Below are positions 25,608 to 28,691 of a DNA stretch of 64,000 bases, in pieces. The DNA comes from Haloferax massiliensis (GTDB lineage Archaea; Halobacteriota; Halobacteria; Halobacteriales; Haloferacaceae): NCBI RefSeq assembly GCF_001368915.1, contig NZ_CSTE01000002.1, positions 30,558 through 94,557 of the forward strand, given 5' to 3'. A program made the position numbers and the translations under genes. Below the pieces are notes generated by a model that was given only the letters and a program-made list of their open reading frames with translations, searched no databases and was not told where the DNA came from. The stretch's first letter is position 1, and each line of letters begins with the position of its first letter.

Positions 25608-26645
25608 TCAGGTCTCGACCGCGCCGGTTCCGGGCCGGTCGAGCGCGTCGAGGTCGATCCCGCCGTTCGGCATCGGAACGCCCTCGTAGGGGTCGTCGGC
25701 GAGGAGGAGCGAGCCGTCGAGGTCGGCGTAGTCGAGGAGCGGCGCGAGGTGACAGCCCGCCGCGATGGCGGCGTTCGTCTCTATCATACAGCCGAGCATG
25801 ACCTCCAGCCCGTGGGCGCGGGCGGCGTGGATGGCGCGTTTCGCCTCGGTGAGGCCGCCGCACTTCATCAGCTTGAGGTTCGCGATGTCGACGCGGTCGG
25901 CGATGTGCGGGATGTCGTCGGCCGTGACGCAGGACTCGTCGGCCGCGATGGGGAGCGCGCCGCGGTCGTAGACGAACTTCAGGCCCTCGCGGTCCTCGGC
26001 GGGGACCGGCTGTTCGACGAACTCGACGCCGAAGTCGGCGAGGAACTCGGTCATCTCGACGGCCTCGCGGGGCGTCCACGCCTCGTTTGCGTCGACTCGG
26101 ACGGTCGCGCCGGGGGCCTCGTCGCGGACGGCCTCGATGATGGCGCGGTCGCGGTCGGTGCCGAGTTTGACCTTGAGCACGTCGTAACCGGCCTCGTAGG
26201 CCTCTCTGGTTTTCTCGCGCATCGTGTCGAGGTCGGCGAGGCCGACGGTGTACGACGAGGTGGGCGTCCGCGAGGGGTCGAGTCCCCAGAGGCGGTACAG
26301 CGGGACGCCGAGGCGCTTGGCCGCGAGGTCGTGCAGCGCGATGCTCACGGCGGTTCGGGCGGCCGGGTTGCGGCGGACCGTCTCGGCCATCTCGCGCTCG
26401 ATGCGGTCGATGGCGTGGGCGTCGCCGACCTCCTCGACCACCGAGAGCAGGTCGGGAAGCACGGCCTCGACGGTGTCGGCGGTCTCGCCGTAGTGCGACG
26501 ACGGGGCGGCCGCGCCGACGCCCGTCATGCCGCCTTCGTCCTCGACGCGGACGACGACGTTCTCGGCTTCGGTCTGGACGCCGCGGGCGATGCCGAACGG
26601 CTCGGCGAGCGGCATCGAGACGCGCTCGAACTCGGTCGCGAGCAT
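25608..26645 (-). CDS. dgcA: Enolase-superfamily racemase/epimerase, DgcA type
   Basis: Mandelate-racemase/muconate-lactonising-enzyme subgroup, dipeptide-epimerase branch, 345 residues, cytosolic, Mg2+-dependent. The catalytic KxK lysines are K158 and K160 (LKVKLG), metal ligands are in VRVDANEAW (D185), EQPVP (E211) and ADES (D236), and the opposite lysine is in LKLMKCGG near 261. All acid/base residues are therefore in place. It directly abuts the DUF1611 stop (TAG then ATG). In marine bacteria the DUF1611-epimerase pair is reported as DgcN/DgcA, with DgcA racemising N-acetyl-D-glutamate. L-Ala-D/L-Glu epimerase is the older family label and remains possible. Confidence 0.85.
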   Translation of the reverse strand: MLATEFERVSMPLAEPFGIARGVQTEAENVVVRVEDEGGMTGVGAAAPSSHYGETADTVEAVLPDLLSVVEEVGDAHAIDRIEREMAETVRRNPAARTAVSIALHDLAAKRLGVPLYRLWGLDPSRTPTSSYTVGLADLDTMREKTREAYEAGYDVLKVKLGTDRDRAIIEAVRDEAPGATVRVDANEAWTPREAVEMTEFLADFGVEFVEQPVPAEDREGLKFVYDRGALPIAADESCVTADDIPHIADRVDIANLKLMKCGGLTEAKRAIHAARAHGLEVMLGCMIETNAAIAAGCHLAPLLDYADLDGSLLLADDPYEGVPMPNGGIDLDALDRPGTGAVET

Positions 26646-27671
26646 CTAGAACACCTCGTCGACGAGGTCGGCCGCGCCGAAGCGGACGGGGTCGACCGCG
26701 GGGACGCCGAGTTCGTCGGCGAAGGCGTCGACGGCCTCCGCGGCCTCCACGTCGTCGTCGACGTGGGAGGTGTTGAGCATCCCGGCGACCACGTCGGCCT
26801 CGTGGACCGGGTCGGCGAGGTTCTCGTACAGCGAGACGTACTCCGAGAGGTCGGGGAGCGCGAACTCCTCGTAGCCGTGAATCGCCTCGCGGGTGGCCTC
26901 GTGACAGAGCACGAGCTTGTCGGCCATCGACCCGTGGAGGATGCCGCAGGTGACCGCGGAGTACGCAGGGTGGACGATGCTCCCCTGGCCCTCGACGAAC
27001 AGCACGTCGTGTTCGTCGCCCTTCTCCAGAATCATCTCCTCGACCGCGCCGGCGGTGAAGTCGCTGACGACGCGGTCTATGGGGTTGCCCCAGCCGGCGA
27101 TCATGATGCCGGTCTGGCCGGTCGGGATGAAGCCCGCGTCGATGCCGCGCTCGCGGGCGGCCTCGACGAGTTCGAGCGTCGCGGTCATCTTGCCGACCGA
27201 GCAGTCGGTGCCGACGGTGAGGACGACTTCGGCGTCCACGTCGGCGGACTTCCCCTGCGCGACGCCGAGGTCGTCGCGGGGCTTGCGAACGTCGTTGATG
27301 TCACAGCCGTGTTCGTCGGCGAGGCGGGCGAACTCCTCGTCTTCGGCGAGGAAGTAGTGGAGCCCGGAGATGAGGTCACAGCCGCGTTCGAGGGCGGTGC
27401 GAACGTCGTCGCGCCACGTCTCGTCGAACGCGCCGCCGATGGGCGAGATGCCGACGAGGAGGGCGTCGGCGTCGGGCGCGTCGGCCATCGACGCGACGAC
27501 GGGCACGTCGGGGAGGTCGCGGCGGTGGTCGGCGGCGGAGGTGCCGGGGTTGTCGCGGTCGAGGACGGCCACCACGTCGTAGTCGGCGTACTTCAGGACG
27601 CCCGTGGCGGTCTTCGCGCGGTCGGGGAACTTCTCGTGTGCGAGGACGACGACTCGCTGTGGGTCGGTCAT
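26646..27671 (-). CDS. dgcN: DUF1611 P-loop protein, DgcN-type D-glutamate N-acetyltransferase
   Basis: A 341-residue DUF1611 protein. An N-terminal Rossmann-like domain contains VLDRDNPGTSA. The C-terminal P-loop domain has Walker A GTDCSVGKMT at 154-163 and a conserved VEGQGSIVHPAYS segment. DgcN is reported to N-acetylate D-glutamate as the first step of a D-Glu to L-Glu route completed by the adjacent racemase. The start is the ATG at 27671; the GTG four codons earlier is disfavoured by a TATA at 27695-27701. It is first in a two-gene operon with the epimerase abutting. Assignment rests on operon pairing plus family. Confidence 0.82.
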   Translation of the reverse strand: MTDPQRVVVLAHEKFPDRAKTATGVLKYADYDVVAVLDRDNPGTSAADHRRDLPDVPVVASMADAPDADALLVGISPIGGAFDETWRDDVRTALERGCDLISGLHYFLAEDEEFARLADEHGCDINDVRKPRDDLGVAQGKSADVDAEVVLTVGTDCSVGKMTATLELVEAARERGIDAGFIPTGQTGIMIAGWGNPIDRVVSDFTAGAVEEMILEKGDEHDVLFVEGQGSIVHPAYSAVTCGILHGSMADKLVLCHEATREAIHGYEEFALPDLSEYVSLYENLADPVHEADVVAGMLNTSHVDDDVEAAEAVDAFADELGVPAVDPVRFGAADLVDEVF

Positions 27672-27694
27672 ACTGGATGCCACTACGTGCCACC

Positions 27695-27701
27695 CTAAAA
27701 G
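27695..27701 (-). promoter_or_regulatory. TATA element for the dgcN-dgcA operon
   Basis: Minus-strand CTTTTAG, centred 27 bp before the ATG at 27671. It fixes the dgcN start. Confidence 0.45.
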
Positions 27702-27797: not shown

Positions 27798-28691
27798 TCA
27801 GAGCCGGTAGAGCCGCGTGGTCCAGAACTCTCTGGACGCCTCGGCGAGCGCCGCCTCGGGGTCGCCGCTGGCGTCCACGGTGGCGGTGAGCGCGGCGCGG
27901 TCGCGGAACTCGCCGAGGACGGTTCGCTCGCCGAGGACGACGAGGTCGGCGTCGTCGCCGGCTGTTTCCGCGCCCGAGCCTGCGTCGGCGTCGCCGTCGA
28001 GGAACTCGTCGAGCGCCTCGTGACAGCGGTCGAGGTGGTCGTCGATTTGGCCCTCGCGGATGCGCTCGAAGCGCGCCTGCGAGAACCCGCCTTTCGAGTG
28101 GGCGGACTTCACGTCGCTCTCGAAGCCCTCGACGAATTCGAGGTCGCCGTCCTCGTAGCGACCGAGGGCGAACAGGTCGCCGCGGACGAGCGCGACCACC
28201 GTGGTCTCGGTCGGGTGGAGCCACGCCGGGTCGAGGTCGAAGCCGTCGCTCCAGCGGTCGAAGTCGTCGGGTTGGCGCGGCGGCGAGAGCGCGACGCTCA
28301 CCAGTCCGGCGTCGTCGGTGAGCGCGACGCAGGGCGCGGCCGCGGGGAGCGAGCGGTCGTCGGAGACGGCGGCGGTGAGCGCGCCCTCCGCGTCGGTCGA
28401 AAACGAATCGAGGCGGGACAGCACCTCGCGGAGGCGGTCGCCGCGGAGGTCCTCGGTCCCGCGGAACTCGAGGGAGTCGTCGTCGCCCGAGAGGCGCTCG
28501 ACGCGGTCTTCGAGTTCGGTGATGCGGTCTTCGAGGCGGTTGACCTCCTTCTCGGCTTCCTGCCGCGCGCGGGCCGCCTCCGCCCGGCGCTCGGACTCGC
28601 CCTCCAGACGCCCGGCTAACGCGTCGCGTTCGTCTTCCAACTCGGCGATGCGCGCTTTGAGTTCGGCTCGACCCAACAACTCGTCCAGCAT
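27798..28691 (-). CDS. Vms1/Ankzf1-type peptidyl-tRNA hydrolase
   Basis: Release-factor-like hydrolase of the Vms1 family, which in eukaryotes cleaves peptidyl-tRNA on stalled large ribosomal subunits. It has 297 residues: an N-terminal coiled coil (~5-70) and a catalytic domain from ~85. The signature HSKGGFSQARFER at 198-210 holds the essential Gln of the GGxSQ-type loop. In archaea the family is present without the ankyrin and zinc-finger parts of the yeast protein. There is no operon partner, with 126 bp to dgcN downstream. The start ATG is the only one before the coiled coil. Confidence 0.85.
   Translation of the reverse strand: MLDELLGRAELKARIAELEDERDALAGRLEGESERRAEAARARQEAEKEVNRLEDRITELEDRVERLSGDDDSLEFRGTEDLRGDRLREVLSRLDSFSTDAEGALTAAVSDDRSLPAAAPCVALTDDAGLVSVALSPPRQPDDFDRWSDGFDLDPAWLHPTETTVVALVRGDLFALGRYEDGDLEFVEGFESDVKSAHSKGGFSQARFERIREGQIDDHLDRCHEALDEFLDGDADAGSGAETAGDDADLVVLGERTVLGEFRDRAALTATVDASGDPEAALAEASREFWTTRLYRL

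Follow-up and report, generated by a model that had tools for sequence, protein, structure and literature searches.

A coupled DUF1611–epimerase gene pair of Haloferax massiliensis as a candidate route for inverting a D-amino acid from bacterial walls

We describe here two abutting minus-strand genes, the first encoding a DUF1611 protein and the second an enolase-superfamily protein, located at 25608-27671 of the window, i.e. the whole 64,000-nucleotide stretch of Haloferax massiliensis contig NZ_CSTE01000002.1 that was analyzed. On balance, we favor the view that they form a two-gene operon whose products invert a D-amino acid, with D-glutamate scavenged from bacterial walls as the likeliest substrate. 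D-glutamate is a cell-wall amino acid, which the bacterial enzyme pair of the DgcN/DgcA type converts to ordinary glutamate. By analogy with this system, the DUF1611 protein would acylate the amino group of D-glutamate (or of another wall-derived D-amino acid) from acetyl-CoA, the enolase-family enzyme would racemize the resulting N-acyl amino acid, with two lysines exchanging the alpha-carbon proton in a metal-dependent manner, and a deacylase encoded elsewhere, possibly one of the many M20-family gene products or the single histone-deacetylase-family protein of this genome, would release L-glutamate. That the two proteins act as an acylate-then-racemize pair is likely; that D-glutamate is the substrate is less certain, the chances being about even. 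The epimerase, judging from phylogenetic trees, belongs to a branch separate from bacterial DgcA.

Both open reading frames and their arrangement were as given in the preliminary description: the TAG stop codon of the DUF1611 gene abuts the ATG start codon of the enolase gene (gap of 0 nt). This zero-gap arrangement is the Haloferax version, a 4-nt ATGA overlap being commoner (45 of the 64 pairs measured), and about 66 of 80 related loci have the two genes side by side. Among 292 haloarchaeal genomes of the class, where a close enolase homologue was defined by an E value below 1e-85, the DUF1611 protein was found in 266 and the enolase in 264 (about 91%). Both genes were present in 264 genomes, the DUF1611 gene alone in two (G021 and G161), the enolase gene alone in none, and neither gene in 26 (Fisher p about 4e-35 for co-occurrence, computed from the listed genomes with kinship ignored). 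Because of the adjacency, the usual overlap and this co-occurrence, the pairing goes far beyond what chance would give. Neither gene is essential, since 26 genomes do without the pair and several of these absences sit in genera whose other members keep both genes (g28, g35, g48 and g67). The strongest evidence that the DUF1611 protein and the enolase work together is their retention without linkage: where the genes are unlinked, as in some haloarchaea, Gemmatimonadales and Poribacteria, 12 of 13 genomes still carry a close enolase homologue at another place. Finally, in nearly all of the related loci inspected by eye, a T/A-rich element resembling the TATA-like one of Haloferax precedes the start at about the same distance, pointing to a leaderless transcript that spans both genes.

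The DUF1611 protein, 98% identical to its Haloferax marisrubri homologue, is related to the characterized DgcN both in structure, as judged by modeling, and in individual residues, as judged by alignment. It comprises a Rossmann-like N-terminal domain (PF17396) and a P-loop C-terminal domain (PF07755), whose P-loop motif is kept in DgcN and in the haloarchaeal homologues. Its AlphaFold model (predicted local distance difference test, pLDDT, of 91) matched the DgcN crystal structure 7xrj in Foldseek (E 1.1e-26, template-modeling (TM) score 0.78). The closest solved DUF1611 fold is 2obn (TM 0.92, 39% identity), i.e. Ava_3511 of Anabaena variabilis, which lacks C256 and whose record gives no function; 2g0t matched with a TM of 0.83, the weaker matches included the P-loop proteins BioD (dethiobiotin synthetase) and HypB, and no GNAT fold was seen among the structure matches. 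At the residue level, 55 of the 104 columns conserved in bacterial DgcN are retained in the haloarchaeal proteins, conserved C-terminal residues among them, and S158, C256, H257, N300, D327 and R330 are common to both while missing from a paralogue of the same genome, hereafter called type B. In the tree, the haloarchaeal DUF1611 proteins formed their own clade, with some long branches, beside bacterial DgcN and 2obn and apart from type B; they did not fall inside the bacterial DgcN clade. Note that the DUF1611 gene of a contig binned as Bacteroidetes (L076) falls among the haloarchaea in this tree; the contig is probably archaeal and mis-binned.

The enolase-family protein was said to be a complete epimerase, and indeed all the catalytic residues of a racemase of the dipeptide-epimerase family are present: the KxK motif, the opposing lysine, the DxD motif and three metal ligands (D185, E211 and D236, conserved throughout the aligned haloarchaeal homologues). 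The catalytic role of the KxK lysines is established for the enolase superfamily, and in known epimerases DxD binds the dipeptide ammonium. R21 and Y52, two residues of the specificity loops, the latter found in 64 of 65 haloarchaeal sequences, are common to DgcA, to 4gfi and to E. coli YcjG, which is an L-Ala-D/L-Glu epimerase; neither is present in BT_1313, in YkfB or in type B. Since the DgcA/YcjG clade has both residues, the Haloferax enzyme (AlphaFold model of pLDDT 95) seems capable of accommodating a Glu-like substrate, be it a dipeptide or an N-acyl-glutamate, which its sequence does not discriminate.

The reference for such a pair is the dgcR-dgcN-dgcA operon of Pseudoalteromonas sp. 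CF6-2 (Yu et al. 2023; L128), taken from the plasmid record. The Haloferax pair resembles it in that the DUF1611 gene is directly followed by a co-directional gene of the dipeptide-epimerase family, in the family and fold of the DUF1611 protein, and in the catalytic residues together with R21 and Y52. It differs in having no dgcR-type LysR regulator beside it, the upstream neighbors being acVLRF1-like and DUF5802 genes, as well as in its DgcN score and in the position of its enolase, which are considered below.

The gene contexts of the bacterial relatives fit acyl chemistry and wall recycling. In three Gemmatimonadales (L160, L161, L162), the gene immediately upstream of the enolase relative belongs to the histone-deacetylase family, and its product is a candidate N-acetyl-amino-acid deacetylase. 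In three Poribacteria (L157, L158, L159), this position is occupied by a gene for an N-acetylmuramoyl-L-alanine (MurNAc-L-alanine) amidase; a D-serine-dehydratase-type gene stands beside the DUF1611 gene in three Poribacteria. Bacterial DUF1611 loci were also found near genes for a D-amino-acid transaminase, a glutathione/peptide ABC transporter or peptide uptake. The preliminary description had proposed a search of homologous operons for a nearby N-acetyl-Glu deacetylase; in haloarchaea, no deacetylase is linked to the pair.

Several observations weigh against a DgcN/DgcA-like function. The DUF1611 protein scores 268.3 bits with the DgcN model (NF041892), under the curated equivalog cut-off of 480 bits, compared with 493 bits for the DgcN of CF6-2, 551 for that of Ruegeria and 525 for that of Pantoea. 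The best model for the enolase, DgcA (NF042940), gives 260.7 bits, under its curated cut-off of 400 bits, the YcjG and Thermotoga-type epimerase models scoring lower still (206 and 179 bits, respectively). In trees, bacterial DgcA joins E. coli YcjG and 4gfi with a Shimodaira–Hasegawa-like approximate likelihood ratio (SH-aLRT) of 100, and the haloarchaeal enolase falls outside. Given the low DgcA score and this position outside a clade that also contains YcjG, sequence cannot separate an N-acetyl-glutamate racemase from a dipeptide epimerase; the DgcA label itself overlaps YcjG, as the Pantoea DgcA passes both cut-offs, so that DgcA and YcjG-type epimerases are not told apart either. The best match of the enolase in the Protein Data Bank (PDB) is 3iji/3ijq, the dipeptide epimerase BT_1313 crystallized with L-Ala-D-Glu (TM 0.92, 36% identity). 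A conserved third gene beside the pair was sought in haloarchaea and none was found, nor was a linked deacetylase or transporter; the near-core spread exceeds what might be expected of a scavenging niche; and the Gemmatimonadales and Poribacteria contexts each come from three related genomes and are not independent events. Of the dgcN-dgcA-type operon first announced, the kinship with DgcN and the coupling of the genes stand, but both proteins lie far below the cut-offs and the enolase lies outside the proven DgcA clade.

Two specific placements of the enolase were considered. Direct orthology with DgcA was rejected by its position in the tree and by an approximately unbiased (AU) test of the forced grouping (p = 0.02). 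A specific sister relation to BT_1313 found no clear backing, as the haloarchaeal clade and the bacterial BT_1313 group were not joined with support; a single clade of all DUF1611-linked enolases of haloarchaeal type, apart from BT_1313, was weakly rejected (p = 0.04).

These data bear on three other explanations. The enolase could be a genuine dipeptide epimerase of the L-Ala-D/L-Glu type that works on murein peptides, with the DUF1611 protein catalyzing an accompanying reaction on the peptide or on what is made from it; we regard this as rather unlikely. The closest solved structure, BT_1313 with its dipeptide, falls among the bacterial relatives of the haloarchaeal enolase in the tree, and both the invariant DxD and the amidase neighbor of Poribacteria agree with such an activity. 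However, DgcA keeps DxD too, hence the motif is not diagnostic, BT_1313 lacks R21 and Y52, an intact dipeptide substrate leaves the tight coupling to a DgcN homologue unexplained, and the deacetylase-family neighbors in Gemmatimonadales fit acyl chemistry. No DUF1611 match was found in the one Bacteroides control genome. Alternatively, the same acylate-and-racemize logic could hold with a different D-amino acid as substrate, or with a wider range of them (D-Asp, D-Gln, D-Asn or others), which we consider unlikely. The side chain is not fixed by the sequence, and in Ruegeria conchae (L138 3893-6210) a more distant DUF1611 gene is followed by an ornithine-racemase-like, pyridoxal phosphate (PLP)-dependent gene; R21 and Y52, shared by the Glu-active YcjG and DgcA, point instead to a Glu-like substrate. 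A core haloarchaeal function unrelated to scavenging, e.g. the synthesis of a D-residue or of a modified amino acid destined for some cell component, would suit a pair that is so widespread and has ordinary conserved genes as neighbors, but is highly improbable: some genera in which other members keep the pair include members without it, and the bacterial relatives lie near a wall-degrading gene.

The genome also contains the paralogous, type B DUF1611/epimerase pair mentioned above (G000:C2:341783-343875; L002 1051-3143), whose genes overlap and are preceded by genes for an IclR-type regulator and a class-III aminotransferase. Gene order is the same in the two pairs, but the type B P-loop reads GKR instead of GKM, C256-H257 is missing, and the epimerase lies on the YkfB/Thermotoga side, unlike that of the main pair. 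The type B pair is also patchier (22 of 97 genomes, versus about 91%), with the epimerase adjacent to DUF1611 in 16 of the 20 loci checked; in Halorussus halophilus, an NlpC/P60 gene precedes it. Glutamate racemase was considered as another route in this genome, which gave only a sub-threshold match and none over the Pfam cut-off. A broader, tentative proposal, possible rather than probable, is that DUF1611 proteins are general partners of amino-acid epimerases, paired with at least three enolase branches (DgcA/YcjG, haloarchaeal/BT_1313-like and YkfB-like) and, in the case of distant members, with racemases that use PLP. On this view, the pair of haloarchaea would have been assembled separately, as a near-core pathway by which D-amino acids of bacterial walls are recycled, with histone-deacetylase-family proteins as deacylases in some bacterial lineages.

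The features of the locus are collected in Table 1. The recurrent haloarchaeal neighbors, namely the acVLRF1-like, DUF5802 and PspA genes, were considered as functional partners and set aside, as they look like plain synteny. The acVLRF1-like gene, of the release-factor family, lies upstream of the pair, and a gene convergent to the pair encodes a protein with no Pfam or NCBIfam match.

Table 1. Positions in the window of the two genes, their conserved motifs and the flanking genes
Feature	Position	Strand	Evidence
DUF1611 (DgcN-like) protein, 341 aa from ATG	26646-27671	-	PF07755 263.5 bits, PF17396 98.4 bits
Enolase-superfamily racemase/epimerase, 345 aa	25608-26645	-	MR_MLE_C 146 bits, MR_MLE_N 55 bits
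TATA-like TTTTAGG, about 26 nt upstream of the DUF1611 ATG	27694-27700	-	Read by eye
P-loop (Walker A-like) GTDCSVGKMT, residues 154-163 of the DUF1611 protein	27183-27212	-	Read in sequence
R21 of the enolase, 20s-loop residue	26583-26585	-	65/65 haloarchaeal homologues
KxK catalytic motif, K158 and K160	26166-26174	-	Invariant in 65 haloarchaeal homologues and all epimerases compared
Second catalytic lysine, K258	25872-25874	-	Invariant wherever covered
DxD motif of the dipeptide-epimerase family, D308-L309-D310	25716-25724	-	Both Asp invariant wherever covered, also in DgcA
acVLRF1-like release-factor-family protein	27798-28691	-	Recurrent syntenic neighbor in haloarchaea
Convergent protein, 361 aa	24489-25574	+	

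Overall, the locus appears ordinary in kind, and its reading as a coupled acylation–racemization operon is, by analogy, well supported. The headline of a D-glutamate route in halophilic archaea is not novel, such a route being already published judging from the title of Yu et al. 2023 as cited in PMC12363236. The present analysis adds the different branch of the epimerase, the near-core distribution with co-absence, the retention of both genes when unlinked, and the second pair. We warn against copying the DgcA label to haloarchaeal proteins, given that their epimerase stems from a different branch and that the models for DgcA and YcjG overlap. If the proposed function is true, about nine in ten haloarchaeal species would be capable of inverting an amino acid from bacterial cell walls, and this would link salt-lake archaea to the turnover of what bacteria leave behind.
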